Shown one piece after another: positions 45,808 to 63,861 of a DNA stretch of 64,000 nt. The position numbers and the translations under genes are program-made. Below the pieces are notes generated by a model. It saw only the letters and a program-made list of their open reading frames with translations, had not been told where the DNA came from and made no database searches. The stretch comes from Natrinema sp. SYSU A 869. Lineage in GTDB: Archaea > Halobacteriota > Halobacteria > Halobacteriales > Natrialbaceae. The stretch is from contig NZ_CP082248.1 in assembly GCF_019879105.1 (NCBI RefSeq), positions 620,001-684,000 on the forward strand, read 5' to 3'. Each line of letters begins with the position of its first letter. Position 1 is the stretch's first letter.

Positions 45808-47319
45808 ATGGAGGCGTTCGTGACGCAGTCACACGGATCCACCGTCGAAGTGGGGAACGGCCTGATGGCCTGGGTTGGTCGACCCAGCGCAGCGCTCTCA
45901 CTGGCCGACGATCCGCTTCCGCTCGTGCTGGCCGGGGCAGTAGTGACAATCATCGGTGCCGCAGTCGTCGTTCGAGCGCGAGCCAAGGACTCGAGTACCG
46001 GTCCCGACAACCGCTCGAGCGGGGATCCGACCGGGAGCGAAGTCAGAGAGCGGTCCGCGCAGGTCTCGTTCGAGGAACGGATCGGGGAGACGACCCTCGA
46101 TCGACTCGCACCGATTCTCCCCGACGCGGTCGGCCGCGTTCGTGATCTCGAGTCCGACGGCTGTGATGATCGCGAAACCGAGCGAGAGCGAATCAACCGC
46201 GCCGAGCGGGAACTCCGCCGCGGCCTCAAGGACGCGCTTGCAGACGGCCGCCTCGATACGGGGTTGACCGGGCCGGACGACGAACCCTACGAGATCGTGA
46301 ACCTTCCGAGTCGCTACCGCGAGTTCACCGTGCCGCCATCGGGGCGGACGGTCCACGTCGGAGAGGCCGAGAGGGCCGTTCGGGACCAACTCGAGGACGG
46401 CACCCTCCGGGACGCGGCCATTGCCGCTGCGGCAGTTGACGACCATCGCGAAAAGATTCGGCAGTACGTTCAGGATCGCGAGGAAGAGATCGTCGACCTG
46501 CGGAACGAAATCGACGCGACGCTCGTAGACGTCCGCGACCTGAGCGGCCGACTCGACGGGAAGCTGGCGGACCGTGTCGAGGAGTTCGTCCTCGACGGAC
46601 GACACGACGATGTCGACGGCGTCGCCGAGATCGAACGCGACATCTCGGACGCGATGCACTCGCTGCACCGCTGTTCGTTCGAGGACGCGCGACGGGAACT
46701 CCGAACCGCGCGCGAGGCCGCCGCCGACCTGCTCGTCACCGTCGACTTCCTCGGTGGGCTGGTCGGCACCGTCGAACACGGGAGCGGAACGGTCGAAGTG
46801 CCGACCGTCGTGTCGACGGCGCTCGTAACCGACCTCGCACCAATCATCGAACGACAGTACGATGTCGACGCGTCGGTCGACGGGACCGCAATCGCCATCA
46901 CCGAACGGAACATGCCCGGCGACGAGGACGATGTGTCGAGGATATCGGACGTGGCAACACCCGCGACCGAGCAGACGCCTGCGGGTGAGTCGACCGGCGG
47001 ATCGACGGGGACCCGGAATCACGTCGCAACCGAGTCAGTCGCCGACGAAATCCTGTTTGTCCTCCGGGAACTCGGCGGAAACGCGGACGGCGATACCGTC
47101 CAGTGCCAGACCGAACGGCTCCCAAAAGGAATCGCGCAGCCGGCCGTTCTTGAGGAACTGGCCGCGTTCTGCCGACGACAGACTGATGTCGTCGCCACCG
47201 TTGACCTCCAGGAGGGGGCACCGCCGGGCTTTCTCGAGATCGAGTTTACCGACCGGACGACGGTCAGGGGCGGTCTCGAGACGTTACGAGAGCGGTTCGT
47301 CGAGCGCCACGGCGGCTAA
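45808..47319 (+). CDS. Single-span membrane protein with long cytoplasmic coiled-coil domain
   Basis: 503 residues from the ATG at 45808; an in-frame extension to 45736 lacks coding bias. One membrane segment at about 36-56 (LPLVLAGAVVTIIGAAVVV), then basic residues, so the C-terminus is cytoplasmic. A long helical region follows (ERTEREL-type: ERINRAERELRRGLKDALADG; DREEEIVDLRNEIDATLVDVRDLSGRLDGKL). The last 100 residues (VADEILFVLRELGGNADGDTV...FLEIEFTDR) may form a winged-helix-like end domain also seen in the protein at 54339. Candidate membrane anchor for the tubulin-like filaments. No homolog recognised. Confidence 0.8.
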   Translation: MEAFVTQSHGSTVEVGNGLMAWVGRPSAALSLADDPLPLVLAGAVVTIIGAAVVVRARAKDSSTGPDNRSSGDPTGSEVRERSAQVSFEERIGETTLDRLAPILPDAVGRVRDLESDGCDDRETERERINRAERELRRGLKDALADGRLDTGLTGPDDEPYEIVNLPSRYREFTVPPSGRTVHVGEAERAVRDQLEDGTLRDAAIAAAAVDDHREKIRQYVQDREEEIVDLRNEIDATLVDVRDLSGRLDGKLADRVEEFVLDGRHDDVDGVAEIERDISDAMHSLHRCSFEDARRELRTAREAAADLLVTVDFLGGLVGTVEHGSGTVEVPTVVSTALVTDLAPIIERQYDVDASVDGTAIAITERNMPGDEDDVSRISDVATPATEQTPAGESTGGSTGTRNHVATESVADEILFVLRELGGNADGDTVQCQTERLPKGIAQPAVLEELAAFCRRQTDVVATVDLQEGAPPGFLEIEFTDRTTVRGGLETLRERFVERHGG

Positions 47320-47483
47320 GACGAGTGTAGGTGCAGCTTCGATCGCTGGTGGGTGCCGACAGACGGGTGTGCGATCGCACGTTCAGTTGGTATGTTCTAT
47401 GTAGGTATTCATGTAATAATTTAACATCTCGAAAACTGAGTCTGGTAGAGTCCAAGATCGAAATCGCTGCCGGTCCACACGTA

Positions 47484-47496
47484 ATCCTTTAGATAG
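47484..47496 (+). promoter_or_regulatory. TATA-like element before first tubulin-like gene
   Basis: TCCTTTAGATAGT lies 32-42 bases before the ATG at 47527, allowing a leader of only a few bases. The 207-base gap before it also has the palindrome GTGCGATCGCAC (47369-47380), perhaps the end signal of the previous gene. This suggests that gene 47527 has its own promoter. Confidence 0.4.
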
Positions 47497-47526
47497 TTCC
47501 GACGAAGGGATAGGACAGTACTGAGA

Positions 47527-49125
47527 ATGACGAATCTCTGTAAAATTTGTATGGCGCAGGCGGGCGAGTGGGAGCGGGCGACCCTCGTCGAACACGTCCG
47601 AGACGCACACGGCGACGAGCCGGAGTCCGTCGAACAGGTGTATCCAGACCTGCGCGAGGAGGTGTTCGCTCCGGAACCACCCGAGGACGATTCGACCGGC
47701 AACGAAACTCGATCGGGACCGGCGAAATCGACCGAGACGCTCAGCGAGGACCTGCTCGATAGCACCTATGGGAAGAAGTGGTTTCTCGTCGGCGTCGGCG
47801 GCGCGGGGAACAATATTCTCGATGCGATCTTGCTCCGTCGCGAGACGCTGGCGGAGAACAACGAGCGCCGCGCTCGGATCTGGGAGGGCGGACTCGCCGG
47901 TTACGGGCTCCTGAACACGAACGTCAGCGAACTCGAGCAGACCTACTACGCACAGGAGGAGAAGGGCTACAGCCGCAATGACCTGTTGCCGAACTGTATC
48001 ATCGGGTTCGGCCGCCACGATTATGCAGGCGCCGGCTATCGGTGGGACATCGGCAAGGAGTTGATGGAGGCCGATTTCGAGGGCGACTCCGACCCCTTCC
48101 GAGAGCGCTGGGACATGAAAATAGAACGGATTCAGGACTCGCAGGCCGTAATGTTCGTCCACAGCGTCACGAAGGGGACCGGCTGCGGTGCGACGCCGGT
48201 CGTCGCCGATAACCTCAGATCCGACGTCCTCGAGGACGACACGGTCGTCCCGAAACCGCTTTTCAGCAGCGTCGTCATTCCGTCGGAGGGTACCGAGTAC
48301 TCGGAGTTCGGCGGCCGCGCGAAGGTAAACGGCGTCGTCGGACTCGCGCGCACCTCCCGAGCGGTCGACGCGATCATCCCGTTCGATAACAACTGCCTCG
48401 AGAACGTTCAGGCGGACATCCGGCCGCAGATCGACCGGCTTGCGGAGTACAACCCGCCGCAGTATACGGAGATAAACCGACCGCTCGTCGCGTTCCTCGA
48501 GGCGTTTACCATGTCATCAGTGCCGCAGTTCCTCGATCAGGACGCGACGATGTCGATCATGGGCGACGTGTTCGATCCGGCCGACAGCTTCCGGCCGGTC
48601 GAGGACAAGTATCAGCTGAATCCCGACGTGTCGTTCACGCCGGCGGTGATCCTCGCGCCGATACTGGGGCGATCACGTGCGAGCGTGATCGATCGGTCGA
48701 AACTCGAGATTCTCGTCCGGAATGCGCTGTTTCAGAACAAACTGGCCGAGTTCGATCCGACGACCGCCTGGGGCGGGACGTTCCTCGTGTACGGTCCTCC
48801 CGAAAAGATGGACGCCGTGTCGGATTTCGTCGGCGACGGGACGCTGACGGAGATCATCTCCGGCGAGGAGTTCCTCGACGCGGGCAACGTCTCGGGAATC
48901 GAAACCGTCGACGTCCACGTCAAACAACTCGTGACGCCGGACCTCGACGACGTCCACCTCTGGGGGACGCTGTGGAATCCGGAGATGCCGTCGCTGTCGG
49001 AGATGTACGATCAGGCCCAGCGACTCAAGCAGGAGGGCAACAGCGAACAGGCCGAAAACGTCCGCGAGGAGTGGGACGCGGTCGAGGCGCTGTTTTCGGC
49101 GCTCGGTCGGGAGAACATGGCGTAA
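47527..49125 (+). CDS. Tubulin/FtsZ-superfamily GTPase 1 with N-terminal C2H2 zinc finger
   Basis: 532 residues. Residues 5-28 form a C2H2 finger (CKIC...LVEHVRDAH). An acidic linker leads to the GTPase fold: LVGVGGAGNN (87-96, first nucleotide loop) and VTKGTGCGATPVVADNL (214-230), equal to the GGGTGTG signature of FtsZ/tubulin but with Lys for the first Gly. AVDAIIPFDNNCLEN (279-293) matches the DxxIxxxN block. The T7-loop position (about 313-325, TEINRPLVAFLEA) lacks the catalytic Asp of FtsZ, so it may hydrolyse GTP poorly or need a partner. The C-terminus is longer than in FtsZ and helical. Neither FtsZ nor CetZ. Confidence 0.88.
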   Translation: MTNLCKICMAQAGEWERATLVEHVRDAHGDEPESVEQVYPDLREEVFAPEPPEDDSTGNETRSGPAKSTETLSEDLLDSTYGKKWFLVGVGGAGNNILDAILLRRETLAENNERRARIWEGGLAGYGLLNTNVSELEQTYYAQEEKGYSRNDLLPNCIIGFGRHDYAGAGYRWDIGKELMEADFEGDSDPFRERWDMKIERIQDSQAVMFVHSVTKGTGCGATPVVADNLRSDVLEDDTVVPKPLFSSVVIPSEGTEYSEFGGRAKVNGVVGLARTSRAVDAIIPFDNNCLENVQADIRPQIDRLAEYNPPQYTEINRPLVAFLEAFTMSSVPQFLDQDATMSIMGDVFDPADSFRPVEDKYQLNPDVSFTPAVILAPILGRSRASVIDRSKLEILVRNALFQNKLAEFDPTTAWGGTFLVYGPPEKMDAVSDFVGDGTLTEIISGEEFLDAGNVSGIETVDVHVKQLVTPDLDDVHLWGTLWNPEMPSLSEMYDQAQRLKQEGNSEQAENVREEWDAVEALFSALGRENMA

Positions 49126-49236
49126 TCGGCTGTTATCTCGCCGACCCGGTCGGCTCGTCGACGTATCATCGCGTGACGGAACTGGCCGTCCATCGCGTCC
49201 AGCATTCATCCATATGTGAATTATAGGGAATGAAAT

Positions 49237-49246
49237 GTAAATATTA
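49237..49246 (+). promoter_or_regulatory. TATA box for the small ORF/PH-domain gene
   Basis: TGTAAATATT is centred about 24 bases before the ATG at 49265, the usual distance for a leaderless haloarchaeal transcript that would start at the 39-residue frame. Confidence 0.5.
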
Positions 49247-49264
49247 CGGGTCTTTGTTCGACAC

Positions 49265-49384: not shown

Positions 49385-49390
49385 CGACCG

Positions 49391-51345
49391 ATGTCAGAAG
49401 AAGACGCCCATCAGGCGAGCACCACCGGCATCAACCCACTCGACGGGGAAGTCGTCCTCAAAACGTTCACCCGTCCTGGATCAACTGGAAGTGGCGACTG
49501 TTCGGATCGATACTGTTCCTCATGGCCGGTCTCAGCGTCGGTGGCGGTGGGAGGACCGTCATTATGGGGATCGGAATGTTGCTCTTCCTCAACGTGTACC
49601 TCGCCCGAAGGCGGAGCCGCTATATCGTCACGAACCAGCGGGTCAAAAAGAAAACCGGCTTACTGAGTACGTCGACCGGTGAGACGCGGCTGAGCAACAT
49701 CAACGGAATCTCGACCGGATCCGGTATCCTCGAAGGACTGGTCGGAAAAGGAACGGTCTCTATCACGGACGCCGCCGGTGAGACGTTTCCCATCAAAGGC
49801 GTCGGCGACTACGAAAAGCTCGCCCGGACGCTCCGCGAACGGCATCAGCAATCCATGCAACCGGGCCGCGGTCACGGGGCGGCCGCTCAGCCCGGTCCCG
49901 GTCCGGCCCAGCACCGCGGCGGTTCGGCCCCGGTGCGGCAGGCACAACAAGGGGCCGACGGCGGTCAGAACAGCTCTCAATCCGGCGACCGAGCGGCAGC
50001 CGAGTCGACCGAGGCCGCCGACAGTCCCAAGGACCGCTGTCTCGAGTGCGGCTCCCGCGTCGACGCGGGCGTGAGTTTCTGTCCGGAATGCGGGGCCGAC
50101 GATCCGTTCACGCCGTCGACGAGCGACGGGACCGACGAGACGGCGGCCGAGACCGACACCGAGCCTGCGCCCGAACGCGACACACCGACGCATCCGATCG
50201 CCTCGATCGCGGAGTCGGTCGCCAAGCGCTGCCGGCCGGACTCGAGCGCTGCGACGGAGCTGTGTCAGACGCTGTCGGCCGAGGAGACCGACGAGCGGCG
50301 GCTCGAGGACGCCCTCGAAGCGGCGGTCGATACGCTCGAGACGGCTGCCACGGTGACCGACGCCGTCGAGAGGGTCGACGATCCCACCGAACGCCGGCAG
50401 CTGGAGTCCGCGCGCCGGACGATCACCGGCGAGCGCGGCCGCCTGCCCGCCGAGATCGAACCGATCCTCGATCGGACGATCGCAGTCAGCGAGGACCTTG
50501 AGGCGTGTGAACGCGAACGCGAACAGCTCCGAGAGGCCGCCGACGCGGTCTGTCAGGCCGCGAGACGGAATACGCGCGTAAAGCTCCGAAGCGGGGACGT
50601 CACCGACCGGACGGTCGCGGTGGCCGAAGCGATCGAGGACGGCGATCTTGGCGGCGACTCGACCGAACCGATCATCCCGGCAGTCGCCGGCGAACTCGAG
50701 CGCTCCATGCAACCGGAGTCGTCCCAATCCCGAGAACTGCTCGAGACGCTGGAGAAGCCGGAGTCCGACGGCGTCGAAGCGGTGTTGCGATCGACGGTCG
50801 ATTCCCTCGATTCCTACGCGGACCTGCGGGCCACCGTCGCCGACATCGGCGAGCGCGACGTTCGGCGACGACTCGACGCCCTCGACGACGAACTTGGGCG
50901 GAAGGATGGCGACGTCTACCGACACCTCGCCGACCGCGTGCGGGAACTCGAGGCGATGCTCGAGCGCGATGGCGTCACGGACGTGCAGCTGTACGCGATC
51001 TACCAGGAGTCGACATTCTACGATCGGACGCTGTTGCCGCGGCTGTCCAGATCGCTGGGCGGCGACGGCGAGGCCGACCTCGAGCGGTCGGTCGCCGATC
51101 TCGATGATCGGATCGACGCGATCGAGCGCGAGTACATCGACGTCCGAGCCGATCACAACCACACCATTCCGCGGCACTTCCTCTCGCTGGCCGACGACCT
51201 CCGGGCGGAGGCTCAACGCGTCGACGGCGACAGCCCGATGCGTGCGGCCGGCCTCTGCTCGGCGGCCGACGAGGTGCTCGGCCACGTCGAAGCGCTCTAC
51301 GAGCGAAACGAGTACAGCGTCATGCTCCGGCGGCTCCGCGGGTAG
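49391..51345 (+). pseudogene. Bacterial-PH-domain membrane protein with zinc ribbon, apparent frameshift
   Basis: Starts MSEEDAHQASTTGINPLDGEVVLKT; near 49464 the frame must change by one base to continue HPSWINWKWRLFGSILFLMAGLSVGGGGRTVIMGIGMLLFLNVYLA, a membrane hairpin, then a bPH2/DUF304 domain (RYIVTNQRVKKKTGLLSTSTGETRLSNINGI...VSITDAAGETFPIKGV). A zinc ribbon CLECGS...CPECG (codons near 50037-50092) and a 400-residue helical domain follow. Joined length is 651 residues. The rest of the gene is fully open, so a recent one-base loss, a sequencing error or recoding are all possible. Likely membrane/lipid platform of the cluster. Confidence 0.75.
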
Positions 51346-51585: not shown

Positions 51586-51645
51586 ATGTCCGATCCGATA
51601 ACTACATTTGGAGTCGAACAGTACGATATTTTGATAATTGTATGA
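51586..51645 (+). CDS. 19-residue leader peptide overlapping tubulin-like gene 2
   Basis: ATG at 51586 gives MSDPITTFGVEQYDILIIV and a TGA that overlaps the ATG of the tubulin-like gene (ATGA at 51642-51645). A TATA-like TTTTAAGA at 51547-51554 lies about 32 bases upstream, so the mRNA may begin at or near this ATG. It may serve translational coupling. A chance frame is possible. Confidence 0.35.
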   Translation: MSDPITTFGVEQYDILIIV

Positions 51646-53069
51646 CGTACCTGTTCGTTGGGGCTGGACAAGCAGGGGGAGCGATCGTCGATGCGATATT
51701 CGATTACACCGACGATTCACTGCTGGGGATGTTCGACTCGGCCGACATTTCGACGCTCGGCCGGCCGCTGGTGTTCAATTCGACGATGCGGGACCTCCAG
51801 AACCTCTCGAACGTTCCAGCCGAAGACCAGTACGGAATCGCGGAGCAACACGGCCTCGTCCAGGGGACCGAACCCGGGTTCGAGGAGATGGTAACTGGCG
51901 GGTTCGGCCGGAACCCGGTCGACGCCGACGAGGTGATGGCAGAGCACGCGCCACAGATTCAGACGATCCTCGGCGAGAAATTCGACCCGTCGTTCGCGAA
52001 CGAGGCGGCGTTTGCAAACGAGACGGCGTTCGACGACGACTCGGTTGACGAGGACGCGCCGCTCGACGAGGACGGCGAGAACGATATGCCGGACGACGAG
52101 GATACGCCGCTCGACGAGGGCGATGAGGACGACGCGCCGGCCGAGACGCTCTCGGAACCGGCGGTCGAGCCGACGGGATCGGGCGTCCAGTTCGCGTTCC
52201 TGTTTCTCGGACTCGGCGGCGGAACCGGCTGCGGAATCGGCCCGCATCTCGCTCGCGAGATCAAAGCGTTCACCGACGGGCGGACAAAGGTGGTCGCGGT
52301 GGCGGTGTTGCCGAACACACAGAGCGCCGACGCGGTCGGTGGGGCCGACGACGGCGACGACGTTAGCGCCGGCCGACAGGCCTGGAACGCGCGCTATGGT
52401 CTCGATCGCCTCGAGGACGAGGTCGACGGGATCATCCTGATCGACAACCAGCGAATCTCCTATCTCGACTCGGCGGGCGGAGAGTTCGGGGAGTACAACG
52501 AGTACGTCGCCGCGTCGATCTACGATCTGGTCGCCGGACCGGTGTTGAGCGGGATCAATCCCAGTGCGGTCGAGGGTATCGATACGCCCGACATCGACGT
52601 TCGGGACATCGTCACATCGCTCTCCTTCGGCGTCGCCGGCGAGGAGACGGAACCGGGTTACGCCGCGATCGGCCGCTCGGTGACGATGACGCGATCGCTG
52701 CCGGGGTATCTGTTGCCGTTCGTCGGCAAGCGTGATATCGACAGCGCCGCGCTGTCGCGGCTGTCGGCTGCCAAGCAGTCGCTCGCGAAGGCCGACATCG
52801 GCGATTCTCAGAAGGCGATTTCACTGATCAGGGCGCCGAAATCGAACCTCGGTACCGGGAGCCACAGCATCGAGATCGGGACGGTCAAGGAGTACCTCGA
52901 GCGGAGCAGCAAGCTGAGCGAGGTGAATCTCGGAGTCGCGATGAGCGACCGGAACCTCGCGTCGGTGACGACGCTGCTGACCTACCGTCGCGACGACCTC
53001 GACCGGCTCGCGGACATCGAAGCGGCCGCCGAGGCTTACGAGGAGGAGACGGAGGAGTTGCTCGCATGA
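51642..53069 (+). CDS. Tubulin/FtsZ-superfamily GTPase 2 with acidic insert
   Basis: 475 residues from ATG 51642; the in-frame TTG at 51576 adds residues without homology to the fold. YLFVGAGQAGGAIVDAIF (3-20) is the first nucleotide loop, and FLGLGGGTGCGIGPHLA (188-204) the tubulin signature. DGIILIDNQRI (262-272) is the DxxIxxxN block. DIDVRDIVTSLSFG (317-330) resembles the FtsZ T7 loop NxDFxD, including the Asp that completes the neighbour's GTP site, so polymerisation-coupled hydrolysis is plausible. Between the loops, residues about 131-170 are a repetitive Asp/Glu insert. First gene of a run of overlapping genes; stop overlaps the next start. Confidence 0.9.
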   Translation: MTYLFVGAGQAGGAIVDAIFDYTDDSLLGMFDSADISTLGRPLVFNSTMRDLQNLSNVPAEDQYGIAEQHGLVQGTEPGFEEMVTGGFGRNPVDADEVMAEHAPQIQTILGEKFDPSFANEAAFANETAFDDDSVDEDAPLDEDGENDMPDDEDTPLDEGDEDDAPAETLSEPAVEPTGSGVQFAFLFLGLGGGTGCGIGPHLAREIKAFTDGRTKVVAVAVLPNTQSADAVGGADDGDDVSAGRQAWNARYGLDRLEDEVDGIILIDNQRISYLDSAGGEFGEYNEYVAASIYDLVAGPVLSGINPSAVEGIDTPDIDVRDIVTSLSFGVAGEETEPGYAAIGRSVTMTRSLPGYLLPFVGKRDIDSAALSRLSAAKQSLAKADIGDSQKAISLIRAPKSNLGTGSHSIEIGTVKEYLERSSKLSEVNLGVAMSDRNLASVTTLLTYRRDDLDRLADIEAAAEAYEEETEELLA

Positions 53070-53332
53070 GACGGCGACAACGGAGCGCGGTGTGCCTCCT
53101 CGCAGTCGTCGCCGTACTCGTCGTGCTCACGGCGACGGTCGCGGCCGACGGGTCCGCAGTGAAAACGACCATCGACGAGACCGAGGCAGCGGCTAACGCG
53201 ATGGCACTCGCGGATCAGACGATGCTGATCGCGGCCGGCGGAGCGCTGCTCGGAATCGGGTTCGGCGCCGCGGTCGCGAGCGGTATCACCTACTGGTACA
53301 AGAACCGGGAAATCGGAGGGCGGTTGCAATGA
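53066..53332 (+). CDS. Small secreted single-span membrane protein
   Basis: 88 residues: signal peptide (about 1-27, SAVCLLAVVAVLVVLTATVAA), a short external helix (KTTIDETEAAANAMALADQ), a membrane span (LIAAGGALLGIGFGAAVASGITYWY) and a short basic cytoplasmic end. ATG overlaps the tubulin-like stop and its stop overlaps the next ATG. Size suggests an adaptor subunit between filament and membrane. Confidence 0.8.
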   Translation: MRRRQRSAVCLLAVVAVLVVLTATVAADGSAVKTTIDETEAAANAMALADQTMLIAAGGALLGIGFGAAVASGITYWYKNREIGGRLQ

Positions 53333-54342
53333 AGGCGGGACGGCAGCTCTTGTTTCTCACGGTGATTCTAAGCGTTACGCTCGCGGTCGGTGCCGGATCG
53401 GCCGCCGGCGCGCCCGACAAGAACTGTCCCGCCACCGGCCAAGTTGTCGTTGGTGTCGCAAACGGTGAGGAACTCGAGGACAGCGCCACGCTGACCGAGG
53501 GATCGACGTTCGAACTCGTCTACTGTGACGACGGGGCGGCACACACGAACGCGTGGTTGGATGGAACTGTCGACGAATTTGACATCCGGGAGTCCGCGGA
53601 TGCGGGCGAAGAGGGTGTCTATACCGTCAGACTCACCGGTGATGGATCGGGAGCTGTCAACTTCGCTGACCATGTCACTCTCAACGAAGACGAAGCTACG
53701 GGGCTATCGATCACGGTAGCGACCACCGGCACTGATGGGAGCGCGCTCGAGCGGATCGACGACTCGCGAGTCGACGACTACCTCGCTGCACAGGAGGCGC
53801 TGGCGAACGCGACGGCGGAACTCGACGAGACGACGACGGCCCTCGAGAACGGCGAGGCGGATATCGCAGCAGCCGAGAACGATTTGAATGAACTCAACGA
53901 CGCGTACGGGACCATGACCGAACGAGAGAAAGCACTCACTGACTCCCTCCTCAATCGAGCGGAAGCTGGGAACGCGAGCGGAGCGGTCGGCGCGCTCGCG
54001 GCGGTTCAAACGAACGCGAGCGAGCAACGCGACGCGACGGCATCGACCCTCGAGCGATACCGCGGGATCGTCGAGACGGAGCGAACCGAGGCACAGTCGA
54101 CGGTTCGGCTGCTGACGCTGGGATCGCTCGCCGCCGGCCTGATGGTCGGCGGGGTCGCGGGCGTTGCAGTCCCGCTCGTCGCAGCACGGCGCGTCGAGGA
54201 GACGATGAAGCTGAGCCGGAACGTCTCCTACGACCGAAAGACGGCGCTCGTGCCGATACTCGTCGGGCTCGTTCTGGCGACCGCCGGCGCCGCCCTCCTC
54301 GCGGTCGTCGTCGAGCCGTCCCTCCTCGAGGTGGTCCGATGA
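53329..54342 (+). CDS. Secreted beta/coiled-coil protein with two C-terminal membrane spans
   Basis: 337 residues. Signal peptide (1-27), a beta domain with two Cys (NCPATGQ...LVYCDDG, likely a disulfide), then an extracellular coiled coil (EALANATAELDETTTALENGEADIAAAENDLNELN), and two spans near the end (LLTLGSLAAGLMVGGVAGVAV; ALVPILVGLVLATAGAALLAVV) with a basic loop between. Four-base overlaps on both sides. No family recognised. Confidence 0.8.
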   Translation: MKAGRQLLFLTVILSVTLAVGAGSAAGAPDKNCPATGQVVVGVANGEELEDSATLTEGSTFELVYCDDGAAHTNAWLDGTVDEFDIRESADAGEEGVYTVRLTGDGSGAVNFADHVTLNEDEATGLSITVATTGTDGSALERIDDSRVDDYLAAQEALANATAELDETTTALENGEADIAAAENDLNELNDAYGTMTEREKALTDSLLNRAEAGNASGAVGALAAVQTNASEQRDATASTLERYRGIVETERTEAQSTVRLLTLGSLAAGLMVGGVAGVAVPLVAARRVEETMKLSRNVSYDRKTALVPILVGLVLATAGAALLAVVVEPSLLEVVR

Positions 54343-56429
54343 ACGCGAACGCGAAGAGCGCGCTGGGAATCGGTGCCGTCGTCGTCCTGGCGGCCGCGAT
54401 CGGTGCCGGGGTGTTCGTTACGACCAGTTCCAATATCGCGGTCTGGTTCGTTATCGGCGGGATCCCGCTGCTTATCGTCAGTGGGATCGCGCTGTACGTC
54501 CGCGGCGTCGTGTCCCGCAGCGGGACGAGCGAACAACAGTACGTGAAGCAGCAGGCGCGGGCGGTCGCACAGGACTTTCAGGAGACGGTCCGGGAACGAA
54601 ACGACCTCCGGGAGGCCTACCCGGACTGGGAGTTCACCGCGGACGCGCAACTCGAGTCGATCGCGGGCGATTTCCGGGCACAGGGCGTCGCGTTCGACCT
54701 TGAGACGGGCGCGTTCGACCTCACCAAAAAGGTCGGAAACGCCGAGGTACAGGCGTTCGAGTCGATTTCGGCCGAAGTTGAGCGCCTCAACGAGGATATC
54801 GGAACAGCGTTCCGGGAGTTCGCGACCACTGAACTGTCCCACATCGAGGACGCTCTCGACCGACTCGAGGATGTCGATCTGGTTACTCGAGATGCGGTGA
54901 TCACCGGACCGGATGAAGACGCGGCCGTCCCGGCGTGTCGCGATACGGTCGACGCCGCGAGGGCGACCGCAACGGAGACGATCGAAACGGCGATCGAAAC
55001 CGTCCGCGAGATGGGGCGTGGCGATCAGCGACCCGAAGACAGCGAGGCGATCGATCGAGACCTCGAGGCGGCCGCGGACGCCGTCGGCCGAAACGAGTTC
55101 GGAGCCGCCGTCGAGTCGGTACTCGAGGCGCGGGACCGCCTCCGCGATCAGTTCTCCGGCTCGTTCGACGCGGAGCGAGAATCGGTATTGTCGCTGGTCA
55201 ACGCCGTCGAAGACGCCGGCGTGGCCGCACACGTTGACGCCGCGTACCTCGACGCGGTCGCAGACGTCGAGTCGGCCGTCACCGGCATGGACTCCGCGCT
55301 GGATCTCTCGGAGGTGAGCCACCGTCGTGCGGACCTTCGGCGGACCTGCGTCGACATGGTCGCCGGAATGGAGCGCGATCTCACGGACGAGGTCGAACCG
55401 CTTCGAACGGAGGAGCTTCCGCCCGGCTACTACACGGAGCCGGCGATCGCCGGCGAGACGTTCGTCGACGAACTCGAGAGGATCGACGACTTCGAGCGGT
55501 TCACCGAGCGGTGGCGTGAGGTCGCCGGCTCGCTGGCCGATGCCGTCGACACTGCGAGTACCAAAGCCGCCGTCGTGGAGGCCTACGACGACGTCGCCGA
55601 GATCATCGAGGCCGAACTCGAGACGTCGGGCGAGGTCACGAACGACGATCTGCCGGTACGTGACGCCGCGGAGTTCCTCGGGCTCTACTACCGGCGCAAC
55701 GAGTCGGTCGAACTCGAGCCGGACGTGCCGGTGCTCCGACGCGGCGACGTCGAGAGCCACGACCTCACCGTCGATGTCACCTACGAGCGCGGCGGATCGA
55801 AGCGGACGGCGACGCTGTCGCTGTCGGGCTCGGGCGACGACGAGACGGCGACCGTGGAGACGCGAGTCGCCGGAACAGCGACGTTCGAGGACGTGTCGGC
55901 CGATAACCACACGCTCGAGGCCGATCCCGGCGACGACGCGTTCGCACCGATCGATCGGGAGGTCCGGATCGACGGGGAGACGAGCGTCGAAATCGAGTTC
56001 ACCGAACAGAGCCTCCGCGAGCGGGTCTGTACCGTCACCGACGCGGACATGAGCGAGCACCTGTCGGAGCTCCGCCCGCGCCTCGAGGAGCTGTACGAGG
56101 ACGAGGGCCACGTATCGACGGCGATGGAGCTGCCGGTGCGATCGGCACACGCGCCCTGTCTGCTCGCCGTCTGGGCCGAGACGGACGGCTACGATGCGAC
56201 GGAGACCGCCGACGGCGATATCGTCGTCTTCGAGCACGACCAGCTCGAGCGGGAGTTGACCAACGTGGTCAGGTACAACCTCGAGCCGGGCGAGCGACTT
56301 CCCTTCGACGACCTCGAGCGGAACTTCCTGACGGCACCGGTCCCGCGGTCGGTCCTTCGGGACGCCGTCGCAGAGCTGAGCGAGGAGCACAACGTGACGA
56401 CAACCGACGACGCGATCGAGATGAAGTAA
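54339..56429 (+). CDS. Membrane-anchored 696-residue cytoplasmic coiled-coil/Ig protein
   Basis: Two N-terminal spans (LGIGAVVVLAAAIGAGVFV; IAVWFVIGGIPLLIVSGIAL), then a long cytoplasmic helical region rich in Glu/Arg/Ala (about 65-420). A beta sandwich follows (DLTVDVTYERGGSKRTATLSLSGSG...VEIEF, about 475-550), then an end domain (VVRYNLEPGERLPFDDLERNFLTAPVPRSVLRDAVAELSEEHN). The end resembles the C-terminus of the 45808 protein in length and pattern. Likely scaffold beside tubulin-like GTPase 3, which follows after three bases. The long minus-strand frame over it is a shadow. Confidence 0.8.
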   Translation: MNANAKSALGIGAVVVLAAAIGAGVFVTTSSNIAVWFVIGGIPLLIVSGIALYVRGVVSRSGTSEQQYVKQQARAVAQDFQETVRERNDLREAYPDWEFTADAQLESIAGDFRAQGVAFDLETGAFDLTKKVGNAEVQAFESISAEVERLNEDIGTAFREFATTELSHIEDALDRLEDVDLVTRDAVITGPDEDAAVPACRDTVDAARATATETIETAIETVREMGRGDQRPEDSEAIDRDLEAAADAVGRNEFGAAVESVLEARDRLRDQFSGSFDAERESVLSLVNAVEDAGVAAHVDAAYLDAVADVESAVTGMDSALDLSEVSHRRADLRRTCVDMVAGMERDLTDEVEPLRTEELPPGYYTEPAIAGETFVDELERIDDFERFTERWREVAGSLADAVDTASTKAAVVEAYDDVAEIIEAELETSGEVTNDDLPVRDAAEFLGLYYRRNESVELEPDVPVLRRGDVESHDLTVDVTYERGGSKRTATLSLSGSGDDETATVETRVAGTATFEDVSADNHTLEADPGDDAFAPIDREVRIDGETSVEIEFTEQSLRERVCTVTDADMSEHLSELRPRLEELYEDEGHVSTAMELPVRSAHAPCLLAVWAETDGYDATETADGDIVVFEHDQLERELTNVVRYNLEPGERLPFDDLERNFLTAPVPRSVLRDAVAELSEEHNVTTTDDAIEMK

Positions 56430-56432: not shown

Positions 56433-57659
56433 ATGGCACAAACGGACACGTTTACGAGATGGAGCGTCATCGCCTCGGGAGAGGGTGGCGGGCGAATCGC
56501 ATCGCAGTTCTTCGACCGCACCGAGAATCCGGGCATCGACGACCGGATTCTGGTGATGAACACGAACAGAGCGGACCTGCGGAACACGATCGACCGGCTC
56601 AAAGCGAAACTGGGAGCCACGGAAGACGAAGACGTGATCGAATCCCACGCCCTCGAGTTCGGCTCCCAGCAGGGGGCCGGGAACTTCTTCCCGAACGGCG
56701 AGACCTGCGCGCGCGAGGATCTCGATCGGATCGTCAACCGAATCACCGAGTTCGGAACGACTGACGCGTTCATGCACGTCGCGACGCTGGGCGGCGGCAC
56801 CGGCAACGGGTCGATCCCCTACGTCGTCGATCAGTTCAAGGACGGACTCAGCGATTTGAACGACGACAACGCCGCCGAAGAGTGGATGGACAGCGTGATC
56901 CACGCCGCCTTCGGCGTCTGGCCCTACTACTACGAGCAGCCCCAGCGCCACTTCAACGCGGTCTGTGGTCTCTCACGACTGCTCCGGACGGACGACGACG
57001 AGCAGAACGCCGACATGGTGTTGCTCGCCTCGAACTCCCACCTCGACGACGACGAAACAGGGGCCGGCGATCAGTACGACTCGATCAACGACGCGATCAT
57101 CACCGCGGTCGACCTGATGATCGGAGCCGGCCGGGAGACCCGCAGCGTCATCGATATCAAGGACTACGTGACGATTCCCTCCCAGATGGACGCCTACCAC
57201 TTCACGCCCGCCGTCGCGACTGACCTCAACGGCTCCGTCTACGAACTCGAGTATATGCTCGATCAAGCGGCGGAGGGAACGTTCGTGCCGATGGACGTGG
57301 AGACGACGACGGCCGCCTACGCGATCGTTCGCGCGCCCGAACGCATGATCGACGACGGGGAGATCACCGAGCCGGAGGTTTACGAAGCGTTCCGCGAGTG
57401 GACCGGCAAGAACGGCATCAACGTCGCCGGACAGGCGAGTCTCACGCCGAAACGCGGGCGCGGCAGCGACGTTGACGTGCTCCTGTTGCTCGGCGGCTTC
57501 GATCTGAACCCGCTGCTCGACCACTCGTGGGACGACTTCGAAATGCTCGGCGACAGCCTCGCCGGGCAGTCCCGCGGCGGCGGTACCGACCTCACGACCG
57601 CCCAGCTCGACCGAATCGTCGATAACCTCGAGTCGTACGTCGAACGGAACGCGGAGTGA
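56433..57659 (+). CDS. Tubulin/FtsZ-superfamily GTPase 3
   Basis: 408 residues, close to FtsZ length. SVIASGEGGGRIASQFF (11-27) is the first loop, LGGGTGNGSIPYVV (119-132) the signature motif. NADMVLLASNSHL (192-204) is the DxxIxxxN block. VIDIKDYVTIPSQMD (239-253) resembles the T7 loop, with an Asp in the catalytic place. It is less like CetZ/FtsZ in the C-terminal half, which ends FDLNPLLDHSWDDFEMLGDSL. It differs strongly from GTPases 1 and 2, so the three are ancient paralogs rather than recent copies. Tight spacing with neighbours (3 and 2 bases). Confidence 0.9.
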   Translation: MAQTDTFTRWSVIASGEGGGRIASQFFDRTENPGIDDRILVMNTNRADLRNTIDRLKAKLGATEDEDVIESHALEFGSQQGAGNFFPNGETCAREDLDRIVNRITEFGTTDAFMHVATLGGGTGNGSIPYVVDQFKDGLSDLNDDNAAEEWMDSVIHAAFGVWPYYYEQPQRHFNAVCGLSRLLRTDDDEQNADMVLLASNSHLDDDETGAGDQYDSINDAIITAVDLMIGAGRETRSVIDIKDYVTIPSQMDAYHFTPAVATDLNGSVYELEYMLDQAAEGTFVPMDVETTTAAYAIVRAPERMIDDGEITEPEVYEAFREWTGKNGINVAGQASLTPKRGRGSDVDVLLLLGGFDLNPLLDHSWDDFEMLGDSLAGQSRGGGTDLTTAQLDRIVDNLESYVERNAE

Positions 57660-57661
57660 CC

Positions 57662-60622
57662 ATGACGGCACTGGCATCCATCCCCGACGATCGCTCGACC
57701 GCGAGCGGCGTACTCCTCCCACTCGTCCTCGCGGTCACAGTCGCCGGCGCACTGATCGCACCGGTGACGGCCGCATCGGCAGCGACGACGCAGGATAACA
57801 GCGGCGAAATCAGCATCGAGCGCACTAACGATTTCCTCGAGATCTCCCTCTCAGGGTTCGACGAACGACCGGACGAGGTAACGATCGAGGTCGCCGCAGC
57901 GAACGAGAGCGCGTCGACAATCGGGAACAGTAGCGACGGGCAGGCCGAGGTGGCGATCACCGAACTGGTTTCGGAGATCAATCACGTCTCGTTGAGCGAT
58001 GCGAACGTGACGGTAACGGCCGGCGACGCGTCCGAATCGGAGACCCTCGATCTCCGCACGATCGCGTTCGCCGATGCGGATGACGTGCCGGTCTGGCTCA
58101 GCGGCGGCGACGGGTCGCAGGTCATACTCCCGCTCGATCAACGCGACACGGTCGGGCTCACGGAAAGCGATTCGATCACGATCTCCGCCAACGGCGATGA
58201 TCTCTCTGCCGACGTGCGGGCGAACGGAACGCAGCTCGCGATCGACCAGTCCGCGCTCGTAGAGACGGTCGGTTCCACCGACGAAATCGCCCTCGAGGCG
58301 TCCATCGTCGACGATCGACCGACCGAACGAACCCTTCAGCCGCAACTGCGCGACGTGGCCGACCGGCCGGTGCTCTGGTACCCGCTGCTCGAGCCCGGGA
58401 CCGCGTACGGAATATCCGCCGAAGACGATCGGGAGAGGCAGTACGTGAACAGCAGCGTCGATCCCGTTCGCGCCGGCGAGATCGACCTGTCGCCCCTTTC
58501 GGGGGCAGCCGCGGTGACGGCCTCCGTATCGATGGCCGATGAGGGTACCACGGTACTCGAGAACGAAGAACTCACGCTCGAGCGACCGGCCCCGCTCTCC
58601 GCGACGGTCATGGACGACGGTGCGGCGGTATCGTTCGACCAGAGTGTCGACGGCCTCGGTGTCTCCAGCGTTATCGTCAATTCGAGTGTAGGTGGGGTAA
58701 CGCAGTACGCACTCGGAGACGGGACGATGATCGAGAACAGACGGCTCGCGCTCTCGAACGCAACAGTGACCGCGACAGATAAACTCGTGTTGGCGACCGA
58801 CGCGGGGATTGCTCGAGTGACGCTCAATGCCGCCGAATCCGGATCGGACAGAGACAATCCTAAGGGAATGATTTCAACGCTACTCGACGTAGGTATAGTT
58901 GGCGCACCGCTTCTGATACCAGGTCTCCTAGGACTCGTCGTTGGATACGGTTCGTATTGGTCTCGTAATGAACGGACGAAGAAACGACTCGGCATCAGCG
59001 CGATCATTGCTACCGGACTCGCATCGGCGACCGCAATCGGACTTGTTTTCCTCCTCCCTGGAGAGCCGCCATCGATAGCACCGTCATTCTTTGGCGCGGG
59101 TATCGATATCTCGTTCCTCGAGGTGGCGTTGTGGCCCCATGGTTTCGCCGGATCCGGTGTCCTCCTCGGAGCGGTGCTGGCACCGGTACTCTACTACCGA
59201 CTCAGCTACCCGATCGGCGTCGATCGGAGCGCCGGGTTCACAGTCGACGTGACCGTCACTGACGGGAATCAGCCACTGACCGGCCGAACGAAAATCGGAT
59301 ACAGACGAGTGGACAATCCCGATGCCGAGGCAAACGAGACGGCGATCTCGGGCGGCGTGGGGCGGCTCACCGTTCCGGAACGTGGAACGTGGAACCTCGC
59401 CGCTAAACATAAATCGCATGAATCAGACGTCGTCAAAGTTAGTCGGCGAAAGACGAGCGTCACACTCACCATAGTGTTCCCGACGACGGTGACGGTTACC
59501 GACGGCACTGACAGCGAGCCGATCCCTGGCGCAGCAATCACGCGCACGGACAGCGATACCACTGAAACGACGGGCGTGAACGGTACTGCGACGCTCGAGC
59601 CGGGGACTCCGGGCTCGAGCATCGAGATAGAGATCACACACGAGAAGTACGCAACTCGAACGGAAACGATTAATTTCTCCCAGAACGGGGACCGGACGAT
59701 CGAACTCGCGCCCCGAACCGGACGCGCGCGGCTGGTCTCTCGCGTCGACGGCGTTCAGACACCGTCGATGCCGATTCGACTCAGTTCGCGAGAGAAGGCG
59801 TTACAGGATCGGTACGGAACCATTCACATGACGACCGACCGTGATGCAGTGGCCACTCGCGAGGGCCTCCTGATCGGCCAGTACCGCGCCGAGATCGATC
59901 CACCGGACGGTCGTGGCGAATTGTTCGACGGCGGGAAGCCAGTCCTGACTGTCCGCGAAGACCGGTCGACGAAGGTCGGCGTCGACGCCCACTTCACGTG
60001 GTCGCTGTCGTCGTCCCAACGGGATCGGATCGACCGCCTCCGGCGGAAGGTCCGAACGCTGTCCGACCATAGCGGACGGGACACGACCATCCCGCAGTAC
60101 TACGGCTCGGTCGTCGTCGCAATACTCGAGACGGTCGAGTCCCTGCCGGAGGACGGCCACCACTTCGCGCACAGCGAGGCGACGCCCGACGCCGTCGCGG
60201 ACGCGCTGCTTGCCGCCGCCGCGAAGGCGATCGACGCGATCAACGACGCGATGACGACCAAGCGAAACGTCGACCTCTTCGCCGCCTGTGCGGACATGCC
60301 CGATCCCGGCGTCGACTGGGACGGAGACTGCGACCTCGAGACGGTCCTCGAGTGGCTCGAGTCCGATGCGATAACGCAGCGAAACGAACTCAAGGACCGG
60401 TACGAGACCGTCACCGGGCAGGTCGAAACCGAGCGGAAGTCGGTCTCGGAGGCGGCTCCGGCAGAGGAGATGTTACGACACGCCTGGGACCTCGGCAGCG
60501 ACGCCGGTCGCGGTCCGGAGGCGATCGTCACCATCTACGTCTCCCTGCTGTTGCTTGAGGCGGTCGCGGACGTGTTCGAGCACGACGCCCTGTGCGATAG
60601 ACTCTCACGGACGGTGTTCTAA
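57662..60622 (+). CDS. Large membrane protein: external beta domains, membrane spans, internal Ig-like and helical domains
   Basis: 986 residues from ATG 57662 (GTG 57656 overlaps the previous stop). Signal peptide (VLLPLVLAVTVAGALIAPVTAAS), about 360 external residues of beta repeats, then three spans (ISTLLDVGIVGAPLLIPGLLGLVVG; AIIATGLASATAIGLVFLL; GVLLGAVLAPVLYYRLSYP). Internal part: carboxypeptidase-regulatory/Ig-like units (VTVTDGNQPLTGRTKIGYRR; VTVTDGTDSEPIPGAAITR...) and a helical C-terminus (about 790-986). The topology links an outside beta structure to a cytoplasmic adaptor next to GTPase 3. Confidence 0.8.
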   Translation: MTALASIPDDRSTASGVLLPLVLAVTVAGALIAPVTAASAATTQDNSGEISIERTNDFLEISLSGFDERPDEVTIEVAAANESASTIGNSSDGQAEVAITELVSEINHVSLSDANVTVTAGDASESETLDLRTIAFADADDVPVWLSGGDGSQVILPLDQRDTVGLTESDSITISANGDDLSADVRANGTQLAIDQSALVETVGSTDEIALEASIVDDRPTERTLQPQLRDVADRPVLWYPLLEPGTAYGISAEDDRERQYVNSSVDPVRAGEIDLSPLSGAAAVTASVSMADEGTTVLENEELTLERPAPLSATVMDDGAAVSFDQSVDGLGVSSVIVNSSVGGVTQYALGDGTMIENRRLALSNATVTATDKLVLATDAGIARVTLNAAESGSDRDNPKGMISTLLDVGIVGAPLLIPGLLGLVVGYGSYWSRNERTKKRLGISAIIATGLASATAIGLVFLLPGEPPSIAPSFFGAGIDISFLEVALWPHGFAGSGVLLGAVLAPVLYYRLSYPIGVDRSAGFTVDVTVTDGNQPLTGRTKIGYRRVDNPDAEANETAISGGVGRLTVPERGTWNLAAKHKSHESDVVKVSRRKTSVTLTIVFPTTVTVTDGTDSEPIPGAAITRTDSDTTETTGVNGTATLEPGTPGSSIEIEITHEKYATRTETINFSQNGDRTIELAPRTGRARLVSRVDGVQTPSMPIRLSSREKALQDRYGTIHMTTDRDAVATREGLLIGQYRAEIDPPDGRGELFDGGKPVLTVREDRSTKVGVDAHFTWSLSSSQRDRIDRLRRKVRTLSDHSGRDTTIPQYYGSVVVAILETVESLPEDGHHFAHSEATPDAVADALLAAAAKAIDAINDAMTTKRNVDLFAACADMPDPGVDWDGDCDLETVLEWLESDAITQRNELKDRYETVTGQVETERKSVSEAAPAEEMLRHAWDLGSDAGRGPEAIVTIYVSLLLLEAVADVFEHDALCDRLSRTVF

Positions 60623-60623: not shown

Positions 60624-61619
60624 ATGCGCACACACGCTACTCGACGAGCGGTACTACTGACGGCGATACTCGTCGTCGCGACGATCGGGACGGTACCGCT
60701 CTTCGGCGGGACCGTCGCCGCACAGGAGGAGACCGCAAACGACTACTTCGAAACGTTCCGCGCGATGGAGGGAGTCGAAGCCTACGAGGAGTACGACGAG
60801 CTGGAGACCGTCCGGACGTTCGCCGTGTCCCAGACGCAGGTAACGGGCGAGCTCTCCGCCGCCGAGCGCGCGGAGTTCGAGGCGGTCCTCGGGACCCTGC
60901 AGTCGTTCGATCACGCCTACGCTCGCGCCGACGCGGGCGAGTACGAAGCGAGTCTCTCGGCCGCCGAAAACGTGAGCGCCCACATCGACGAGCTCGAGGG
61001 GTACGACCAGACGCAGGCGACGCTCGCCACCCTCGCACTGACGCGGTTCTACGAGCGACTCGGCGACGGTCTCTACGAGGAGGTCGACGCGACGAATCGG
61101 ACACCCGTTCGGATCGAGCGTCTCGAGATGACCGCAACGACCTACGAGCGGGCGGACATGCCGGAGGAGGCCACCCAGTTCAGGGTGCAGGCGGAACAGC
61201 TGAACGCCGAGTACGAACGCGATCGCGCGACCATCGATACCGCACGGAACGCCACTGCCACCTTCATCGAGGACTGTCCCGACTGCACGGACGTTCAGGC
61301 CGCCGTCAGCGCGAACGGCCTCGAGACGTTCGCAGCGTATCAAGACGCACAGACGACTCATAGCCGGGTTCGAGACGTGCAGGGCCACGCGGCCGATCAC
61401 GGGCTCGCCGAGCGCGAGGAGGAACTGGCCGCGATGGGCGACGAGGTTGCCGAAACGCGGACGACGCTCGCGATCGCCTCGAGCGCGGTTCTGATCGGCT
61501 ACGGCGTCGTCGTCGGGCTGGTCGGGACACTGCTCGTCGGGCGACTCTTCGCCTGGCGACGCACGTACGAGGCCGCTCGAGTCGGCTCGGTCGTGACGGT
61601 GGGTGAGAGCGATGTCTAA
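60624..61619 (+). CDS. Secreted helical protein with C-terminal membrane anchor
   Basis: 331 residues from ATG 60624. Signal peptide ending VAAQEE, then all-helical external domain with TPR-like pattern (DYFETFRAMEGVEAYEEYDEL; YERLGDGLYEEVDATNRT), one Cys pair (DCPDCTD), and a final span (LAIASSAVLIGYGVVVGLVGTLLVG) with a short basic tail. It overlaps the next gene by 8 bases. A probable partner of the large beta protein that follows. Confidence 0.78.
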   Translation: MRTHATRRAVLLTAILVVATIGTVPLFGGTVAAQEETANDYFETFRAMEGVEAYEEYDELETVRTFAVSQTQVTGELSAAERAEFEAVLGTLQSFDHAYARADAGEYEASLSAAENVSAHIDELEGYDQTQATLATLALTRFYERLGDGLYEEVDATNRTPVRIERLEMTATTYERADMPEEATQFRVQAEQLNAEYERDRATIDTARNATATFIEDCPDCTDVQAAVSANGLETFAAYQDAQTTHSRVRDVQGHAADHGLAEREEELAAMGDEVAETRTTLAIASSAVLIGYGVVVGLVGTLLVGRLFAWRRTYEAARVGSVVTVGESDV

Positions 61620-63861
61620 GCGAGCGCTGCTCCTCGCGGTCGTCCTCGCCGTCGGTCTAACGGTGGCTGTCGTGCCGGGGGCGGTCGCACAGAGTGGCGT
61701 CACGGTCGACGCCAGTGGCGGGACGGTCAATCTGGGTACCGAGACGGAGACGCGTTCGGTCGAGATCACTAACGACAGAAACGAGTCCGTCTCCGTCGAC
61801 GTTTCGTCGCTGTCTGGAATCAGCGTCGATCCGGATCAACGGACCGTTCCCGCCGGAACGACGGAAACGATCACCCTCGAAATCGACGGAGACGACGACG
61901 CAGGCGGTGGGACAGTCACCGTGAGCGCCGGTGGGAGCGAGGACAGCTTCAGAGTCGAACGCCTCGCGATCGCCGGCTTCGAGGACGAACCGCTTGACGT
62001 CGGCGACGTGCTCGTCGGCGAGAGCGCATCCGGAGACGCGAGCATCGAGGAACTCACCGGCGAGGAAACCCTCAGTAGGGTCGATGCAACCGTCGTCAGT
62101 ACCGATCCGGACGCGGATCTCGGAGTCAGCGCGAGCGGTACGGCGATGAACTGGAACGTCTACGTCGACAGCGGCGTCGAGCAGCATGAGACGCTCTCGT
62201 GGGAGGTCGAACTCGTCCCGAACGGGAACGACGAGGCGGCTCGAACCGTCGAGGTCGAGAGCCGTGTCATCCACCCCGCCGAGTTCGGTGCGGTCTCCCT
62301 CGAGGACGACCTGACGTTCGACGAGCCGCGGAGCTCGACGTCGACGATCACGAAGACGGTCGACCTCGAGGTCGAGAACGCCGGCGACCTCAAACTCGAA
62401 GTCGATCGAGTGACGGCGTCCGCCTCGACCCGTGGACTCGACGTGTCGGTCGCGGACCAACTCGATACGATTGACGGCCAGTCGACCGAGACGATCGAAT
62501 TGGCGGTAACGGCGAACACCGGACTCAGCGAAGGGGAGTACGACGTCTCGGGGTCCATCAGCGCTGCGGACTACAGTATCAGTGACGCGAGCTACGACGG
62601 GACCGTCGAAATCGAACACGGCACGCGACTAGATATCTCCAGTCGGATCGACATCGGTGATGTGCCGATCGGCGAGCCCGAACGACGGTCGACGACCGTC
62701 GGCGAGGCGCTTGGCTACAACGACGTCAATTCCCTCGAGATAACGCGCGAAGAGGGACCGGAGAGCTGGCTGACGATCGAAGAGGCTCCGTCGGAACTCG
62801 CAGCTGGCAGCTCGCAGGCAGTCGTCTTCCAGACGGCCTTCGACACCGACGCGGAGCTGGGAACCAGCTACGAGTGGACGTACACCGTCACCGGTGACGG
62901 CGTCGAGGAACAGACCGTGACCGTCGTCGCGTCACCGGTGCCGCTCGATCTCGATCCGATTCGACGGGACGTCTCCGCGTACGACGGAACGGTCGCCGAC
63001 CAAACCGTCGCGATGATCGACACGATGGACGAACGGATGCGAAGCAATGACGTTTCCAGCGAGGACGTCACGGTCATCCTGTCCTACGGCAGCGCCTCGT
63101 CGCTATATCTCGAGTCGATGACGGCCGCACGCGAGCACCAATCGGCCGGCGAGTACGAGGCGGCCCAGACGGAAATCGTTCAGGCCGCGGCCGCCTACAA
63201 CACGATGACTCTCTACGGGGACGAACTCGAGGGCGAGGCCTTCCGGGACGACAGTTCGGAAGTAACGTCCGCTGCCGAGAGCGACCTGGCAGCCGTGATC
63301 AGCGACCAGCAAGCGCACTACGAGGAGCGCCTCGAGTCCGGTTCTATCTCGCTCGTGGCGGAAGCGACGGTTCAGCGACAGCTCGCTCGGATCGTCTCGC
63401 TTCAGGGCGACGACGAGCGGGCGGCAGCGCTCGAGTCGAACGCGAGCTCGGCGTTCGAGAACTACGCCGAGGCCGTCTCGGACGGGGAACGGGCCCGCCA
63501 GCGCGCTGAGGAGACGTGGACGGCGATGGAGTCCGAGCAGTTCGTCACGGTCGCCGGCCAGCCGCTACTCCTGAACCCGGCGGAGTACGACACGTACACC
63601 GAACGCGTCGATTTCATGAACGCCGCCTACGAGAACGCGACCGCGACGTTCGAGGAGGCCGGTGAAACGGGCCGCGCCGAAGCGGTCGCGACGAAGCACG
63701 AGGAACGGACGAGCGCGCTCCAGGTGACGCAGTGGTCGCTGTTCGGCGCGATCGCCGTGTACGCGATGCTCGTCATCGGTATCGTCCTCCGGACCGCACG
63801 CGGGATGTACTGGTATCTCCGGGACGCGCGTGAGTCGGTCAGCGGTGACTTCCTCGTGTGA
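61612..63861 (+). CDS. Secreted tandem-beta-domain protein with helical stalk and C-terminal anchor
   Basis: 749 residues from ATG 61612. Signal peptide (1-26, LLLAVVLAVGLTVAVVPGAVAQ), three to four Ig-like/ASPM-type domains (VNLGTETETRSVEITNDRNESVSVDVSSLSGISVDPDQRTVPAGTT pattern repeated near 335 and 390), a helical stalk (about 480-700), then a span (WSLFGAIAVYAMLVIGIVL) and a short cytoplasmic end. Last gene of the overlapping series; the surface-exposed end of the system. Confidence 0.8.
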   Translation: MSKRALLLAVVLAVGLTVAVVPGAVAQSGVTVDASGGTVNLGTETETRSVEITNDRNESVSVDVSSLSGISVDPDQRTVPAGTTETITLEIDGDDDAGGGTVTVSAGGSEDSFRVERLAIAGFEDEPLDVGDVLVGESASGDASIEELTGEETLSRVDATVVSTDPDADLGVSASGTAMNWNVYVDSGVEQHETLSWEVELVPNGNDEAARTVEVESRVIHPAEFGAVSLEDDLTFDEPRSSTSTITKTVDLEVENAGDLKLEVDRVTASASTRGLDVSVADQLDTIDGQSTETIELAVTANTGLSEGEYDVSGSISAADYSISDASYDGTVEIEHGTRLDISSRIDIGDVPIGEPERRSTTVGEALGYNDVNSLEITREEGPESWLTIEEAPSELAAGSSQAVVFQTAFDTDAELGTSYEWTYTVTGDGVEEQTVTVVASPVPLDLDPIRRDVSAYDGTVADQTVAMIDTMDERMRSNDVSSEDVTVILSYGSASSLYLESMTAAREHQSAGEYEAAQTEIVQAAAAYNTMTLYGDELEGEAFRDDSSEVTSAAESDLAAVISDQQAHYEERLESGSISLVAEATVQRQLARIVSLQGDDERAAALESNASSAFENYAEAVSDGERARQRAEETWTAMESEQFVTVAGQPLLLNPAEYDTYTERVDFMNAAYENATATFEEAGETGRAEAVATKHEERTSALQVTQWSLFGAIAVYAMLVIGIVLRTARGMYWYLRDARESVSGDFLV

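Follow-up and report, generated by a model that had tools for sequence, protein, structure and literature searches.

A conserved haloarchaeal gene cassette encodes three divergent tubulin-superfamily GTPases, one of them with a putative zinc finger

Results

Organisation of the locus

Here we describe a conserved gene cassette in a 64,000-nt stretch of the Natrinema sp. SYSU A 869 genome (contig NZ_CP082248.1, positions 620,001 to 684,000; hereafter the window), which encodes three proteins of the tubulin superfamily together with proteins that carry many transmembrane (TM) segments and signal peptides (Table 1). In the loci that we read in detail and that hold full-length relatives, the cassette consists of 10 to 11 collinear genes in the order o0-G1-PH-G2-sTM-Ig-CC-G3-BIG-TM2-LAST, where G1 to G3 are GTPases 1 to 3, and in the window it spans positions 45811-63861. 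An orthologue of o0 lies directly upstream of GTPase 1 in every collinear locus, while the sTM and Ig genes were recognised by BLAST in some loci and not in every one. From GTPase 2 to LAST the genes are tightly packed, with neighbours overlapping by 4-17 nt or lying 3-4 nt apart. The stretch to the left of the cassette (39000-45700) carries genes for an M78-type peptidase, a TFB and a TRAM-domain protein besides a transposase-like ORF (41313-42184), and at about 45.7 kb the GC content climbs from 0.56 to 0.64.

Table 1. Cassette genes and GTPase 1 features, with coordinates given as positions in the window.
Feature	Coordinates	Strand	Remarks
o0, membrane-anchored coiled-coil protein, first cassette gene	45811..47319	+	inferred start codon; one weak TM segment
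GTPase 1, zinc-finger (putative) tubulin/FtsZ-superfamily protein	47527..49125	+	532 aa; PF00091; 35-member alignment A1; AF2 model
Putative C2H2-type finger of GTPase 1, residues 5-28 (C5, C8, H23, H28; C-x2-C-x14-H-x4-H)	47539..47610	+	ligand conservation, variable loop
Disordered acidic linker of GTPase 1, residues 51-81	47677..47769	+	pLDDT <50 at 51-81
T4 signature loop of GTPase 1, TKGTGCG, residues 215-221	48169..48189	+	35-member alignment
T7 loop of GTPase 1, GDVFDPAD, residues 346-353, with D350 (FtsZ D209) and D353 (FtsZ D212)	48562..48585	+	alignments, model
PH, membrane adaptor: bPH_2 domain, zinc ribbon, conserved helical C-terminal half	49391..51345	+	bPH_2 E=9e-8; Zn_Ribbon_1 E=4e-5
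GTPase 2, tubulin superfamily, GGGTGCG, T7 DIDVRD	51642..53069	+	PF00091 E=4e-12; start MTYLF by homology
sTM, small protein, two hydrophobic segments	53066..53332	+	4-nt overlap with genes on both sides
Ig: signal peptide, extracellular region, coiled coil, C-terminal TM segments	53329..54342	+	
CC: two N-terminal TM segments, long probably cytoplasmic part	54339..56429	+	
GTPase 3, tubulin superfamily, GGGTGNG, T7 VIDIKD	56433..57659	+	PF00091 E=5e-9
BIG: signal peptide, extracellular region, TM segments, carboxypeptidase-regulatory-like domain	57656..60622	+	
TM2: signal peptide, extracellular region, C-terminal TM	60624..61619	+	
LAST: signal peptide, ASH/HYDIN-type Ig-like domains, C-terminal TM	61603..63861	+	ASH E=9e-6

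Beyond the right end of the window, LAST is followed by a convergent operon with an AAA+ ATPase, arranged as d2/d1-AAA+-d4-d5 in L081 and other genomes. This operon, which encodes a propeller/CARDB-like protein, the AAA+ protein, a coiled-coil protein and d5, was present in 9 of the 10 genomes checked; its ATPase matches the AAA model with E=8e-32 and is nearest to CDC48/VCP (Cdc48/Vps4 class). A search for known defence systems with PADLOC gave no convincing match.

The PH gene of the window appears to be frameshifted near 49460-49470, by mutation or assembly error: within 49391-49522, MSEEDAHQASTTGINPLDGEVVLK goes on in another frame as HPSWINWKWRLFGS. Unlike the window copy, the PH gene of L010 is one intact open frame. 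Comparison of PH across L010, L070, L071, L067, L063, L066, L062, L061 and L100 revealed a constant C-terminal half joined to a varying N-terminal anchor, which may be bPH_2, a DUF5518-type domain, a different TM domain or nothing that we recognised.

Family membership and predicted fold of GTPase 1

GTPase 1 contains the PF00091 tubulin GTPase domain (E=3.5e-11), its 44.2 bits lying above the curated cut-off of 33, whereas it scores 29.2 bits against the FtsZ equivalog TIGR00065, below the cut-off of 295.2, and gives no match to PF13809 (Tubulin_2) at E<=1. In its AF2 model (pLDDT 76.8, pTM 0.73) residues 82-532 form the full two-domain tubulin/FtsZ fold, with CetZ1 matched at Z 32.3, FtsZ at about 30 and tubulin at about 29, so that the C-terminal half of the 532-aa protein is predicted to be tubulin fold and there is no extension of the ∼1000-aa FtsZl1 coiled-coil/helical type. 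GTPase 3 also models as a tubulin fold (pLDDT 68), matching tubulins at Z about 23.8 and CetZ1 at Z 23.4. Six further members of the superfamily are encoded outside the cassette in the source genome, including two canonical FtsZ proteins with T7 motifs NLDFAD and NLDYAD and one CetZ-like protein.

An N-terminal putative zinc finger

The N-terminal element of GTPase 1 is, as judged from its sequence, a putative C2H2-type zinc finger. A first-pass annotation made from the window alone had proposed a finger made of Cys5, Cys8, His23 and His28, and these residues are conserved: among 35 relatives of GTPase 1, collected from genome contigs and from a 391-genome sample of the class Halobacteria, C5, C8 and H23 never vary and at least 90% have H28. 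The finger is retained in relatives down to about 30% identity, and the CxxC...HxxxxH arrangement persists, with different loop lengths, even in the two most distant relatives (33-34% identity); in the most distant, L058, the aligner misplaced the finger, and the protein has a classic C-x2-C-x12-H-x4-H of its own. Because the ligands stay constant while the loop between them varies from x8 to x14, we regard the finger as more than a chance arrangement. Profile matches are weak, with zf-Di19 at E=0.00028 (L057 fragment) and zf-C2H2 at E=0.0055 (L058 fragment) both falling under the curated Pfam cut-offs; in the window protein no zinc-finger model reaches its cut-off and zf-met2 is matched at E=0.16. 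The finger is joined to the GTPase domain by the acidic linker, the length of which is very variable among relatives. A single C2H2 finger is able to bind protein as well as nucleic acid; the neighbours of GTPase 1 encode membrane and coiled-coil proteins and give no sign of a DNA role.

The T7 and T4 loops

Both T7 aspartates of GTPase 1, D350 and D353, are invariant in 35/35 relatives, as are D319 and D322 of GTPase 2 (20-member alignment A2) and D241 and D244 of GTPase 3 (22-member alignment A3). When FtsZ1, FtsZ2, a CetZ and the three sets of GTPases were aligned together in two MAFFT modes, every member of the three sets (35/35, 20/20 and 22/22) had an Asp at both FtsZ positions, which in E. 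coli numbering are D209 and D212, and hhalign profile comparison matched D350/D353 of GTPase 1 with D241/D244 of GTPase 3. This equivalence is drawn with two hhalign runs set aside: that of GTPase 1 against FtsZ, which ended before T7, and that against GTPase 2, which slipped at T7. The counterpart of FtsZ D212 in alpha-tubulin is E254. In the AlphaFold model of GTPase 1, helices H7 (311-329) and H8 (351-360) put the Asp pair where T7 meets H8; since the model is weak around the T7 insertion (mean pLDDT 44-64 for residues 331-370), the placement leans mainly on sequence conservation and alignment.

These results overturn the central claim of the first-pass annotation, that GTPase 1 has no Asp at the catalytic place of T7. 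It had named an alignment with an Asp in the T7 loop as its own refutation, and such an alignment was obtained; a missing T7 Asp is rejected on the MAFFT and hhalign alignments together with the AlphaFold model. The T7 loop of GTPase 1 is longer than that of FtsZ, with extra residues ahead of the motif that probably misled the earlier reading. Its identification of a T7 Asp in GTPases 2 and 3 (DIDVRD and DIKDY) was correct, the same pair being present in both. The suggestion that GTPase 1 depends on the other two for hydrolysis through the lack of this residue is not supported, given that both aspartates are invariant and that the T1 motif GVGGAGN and the T3/T6 Asn positions are intact in the 35-member alignment. 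The idea of a specialised subunit that works with partners gains indirect support: GTPase 1 is always found beside another tubulin-like gene, and its o0-G1-PH module can be missing where GTPases 2 and 3 are kept.

The T4 signature is altered as the first reading had it. In GTPase 1 TKGTGCG stands in place of GGGTGxG, with K216 in 34 of the 35 relatives and G217, T218, G219 and G221 invariant around one variable residue; the protein thus departs from the canonical GGGTG[ST]G, which is typical of most and not all members of the superfamily, and keeps the GTG-x-G core. Because two signature glycines are absent, hydrolysis or nucleotide affinity may be altered, and a T4-based hydrolysis defect in GTPase 1 is possible.

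Distribution and modularity of the cassette

Close relatives of GTPase 1 were found in 39 of 391 haloarchaeal genomes, and all 39 also encode a close GTPase 3. GTPase 1 always lies beside at least one other tubulin-like gene, which is GTPase 3 in these 39 genomes and FtsZl1 or a divergent tubulin-like protein at two distant loci. Outside Halobacteria, a profile search across 392 genomes of the phylum yielded weak matches only, limited to the nucleotide-binding region. A viral origin was rejected, as a degenerate-pattern scan of viral contigs found no relative. The tree distances of G1, G2 and G3 correlate (r 0.81-0.94), which is expected also from simple shared descent and joint inheritance. 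Copies of the cassette lie on plasmid PHS2 of the laboratory strain Halobacterium salinarum R1 (OE_RS12075 to OE_RS12015, where OE_RS12070 is GTPase 1 and OE_RS12015 an ATP-binding protein) and on Halobaculum plasmids, as well as on chromosome-size contigs in many genomes. One genome (G341) has at L085 a second copy, probably decaying, with the genes for GTPases 1 and 2 each broken into two ORFs.

The o0-GTPase 1-PH triad is a separable module of the cassette. It occurs without GTPases 2 and 3 in G081 and G031, where profile HMMs recover o0 (E 7e-12 and 2e-10), G1 (2e-94 and 2e-75) and PH (3e-19 and 8e-24). An FtsZl1 gene adjoins the triad in G081, and in G031 its vicinity encodes a divergent tubulin-like ORF, a MoxR-type ATPase and vWA-like and kinase-like proteins, all named by inspection of their sequences. 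The divergent tubulin-like ORF at L058 (6654-8024, + strand; GLGGGG / LDGGSGNG) is 456 aa long and has MoxR-type, vWA-like and kinase-like neighbours. Conversely, G042 and G048 carry GTPases 2 and 3 with membrane genes and no recognisable triad, FtsZl1 lying no more than about 20 kb away in each. This pattern suggests that the finger-tubulin triad and FtsZl1 take each other's place as partners, on the basis of four genomes in all and of two for the FtsZl1 swap itself. Counting as FtsZl1 any long open frame of about 30 bits or more, we found it in 3 of the 39 genomes with GTPase 1 and, by hand count, in about 60 of the 391 overall, which is too little to claim avoidance.

Discussion

A proposed membrane-anchored multi-tubulin machine

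The reading that we prefer, and hold with moderate confidence, is that GTPase 1 is the finger-tagged, catalytically equipped subunit of a membrane-anchored machine that comprises three tubulins, membrane proteins whose extracellular parts are large, and usually a Cdc48/Vps4-class AAA+ ATPase. In such a machine the three GTPases would form mixed or adjacent GTP-dependent protofilaments on the cytoplasmic face of the membrane, with o0 and PH recruiting GTPase 1, the finger docking a partner and the T7 aspartates completing the active site of the adjacent subunit. The AAA+ protein would dismantle or remodel the complex, and the outcome could be membrane shaping or the building of a surface structure, an inferred cellular role. 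A more ambitious version of this proposal, which we offer only tentatively, is that three distinct tubulins, one of them zinc-fingered, assemble together on the membrane of haloarchaea as a multi-tubulin machine that has not been described before. A dedicated AAA+ protein would take this machine apart, and a module that can be exchanged (either o0-finger tubulin-PH or FtsZl1) would set its place or target.

Other readings account for parts of the evidence. We think it unlikely that GTPase 1 is deficient in hydrolysis through T4, and not T7, and acts as a capping or regulatory subunit dependent on GTPases 2 and 3: the near-universal lysine in place of a signature glycine points that way, as does the fact that GTPase 1 never occurs without a tubulin-like partner while GTPases 2 and 3 do occur without GTPase 1 in two genomes, but the T7 Asp pair is invariant, and T1, the T4 core GTG and the Asn positions of T3 and T6 are conserved. 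Still less probable, in our judgement, is an apparatus at the cell surface, secretory or contact-dependent, in which filaments of tubulin would drive or support a structure that spans the envelope. Such an apparatus would fit the AAA+ ATPase and the several proteins that combine a signal peptide with Ig/ASH-like domains outside the cell and a TM anchor at the C-terminus, yet neither a secretion component nor a secreted effector was recognised.

DNA segregation of the TubZ type, with the finger tethering plasmid or chromosomal DNA, seems to us very improbable. C2H2 fingers may bind DNA and the cassette is found on the Halobacterium and Halobaculum plasmids and here on an 881-kb contig; against this, it also resides on the chromosome-size contigs noted above, the products of most partner genes are membrane-bound or secreted, and no DNA-binding adaptor gene was recognised among the cassette proteins. 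We give the least credence to a paralogue of the division ring, the role implied by the database name "cell division protein FtsZ" that four plasmid records bear and that membership of the superfamily would allow, as the genome has its two canonical FtsZ proteins elsewhere, GTPase 1 falls far short of the TIGR00065 cut-off (29 bits vs 295) and its presence is patchy (39/391).

The tubulin-type systems known so far mostly have one or two types of subunit. A conserved locus that couples three divergent tubulins, one of them finger-tagged, with a Cdc48/Vps4-class AAA+ ATPase would therefore be a new setting for studying tubulin specialisation, and the occurrence of the cassette in a strain of Halobacterium salinarum opens the proposed multi-tubulin machine to testing. 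The reading of GTPase 1 as catalytically dead at T7 is also corrected here.

Comparison with known systems

In the literature searched, which left most subscription journals and preprints outside its reach, we found no description of a finger-tagged tubulin or of a three-tubulin cassette, and none linking Halobacterium salinarum, PHS2 and FtsZ. Santana-Molina et al. (2023, PMC9871819) reported the Halo.Tub proteins, haloarchaeal tubulin-like paralogues that occur in several copies in "quasi-tandem disposition" and have coiled-coil neighbours. On this description they may include some of the cassette GTPases, and the available part of it mentions no finger, three-GTPase cassette or AAA+ partner.

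GTPase 1 resembles FtsZ in T1, T6, the D-x-x-D arrangement of T7 and the predicted fold, and differs from it in its T4 loop, its longer T7, its finger and its score below the FtsZ equivalog cut-off. The top fold match of the GTPase 1 model is the CetZ of haloarchaea (PDB 4b46, 4b45), aligned over 318 residues at 19% identity and with acidic residues at the same T7 place, whereas the CetZ of the source genome has the signature GGGTGSG, lacks a finger and is encoded outside the cassette.

The nearest described systems to the cassette are the FtsZl1 (Tubulin_2, PF13809) membrane-remodelling loci (Makarova and Koonin 2010, PMC2875224). Like the cassette, these loci set a divergent tubulin-superfamily GTPase alongside many membrane and coiled-coil proteins, and FtsZl1 lies beside genes of the cassette or of the triad in G042, G048 and G081. 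Unlike FtsZl1, GTPase 1 combines a putative finger with a full tubulin C-terminal fold, is about half as long, and has neither the coiled-coil extension nor a match to PF13809; and where the FtsZl1 loci carry a vWA/GTPase/kinase set, the cassette brings together three tubulins and an AAA+ ATPase.
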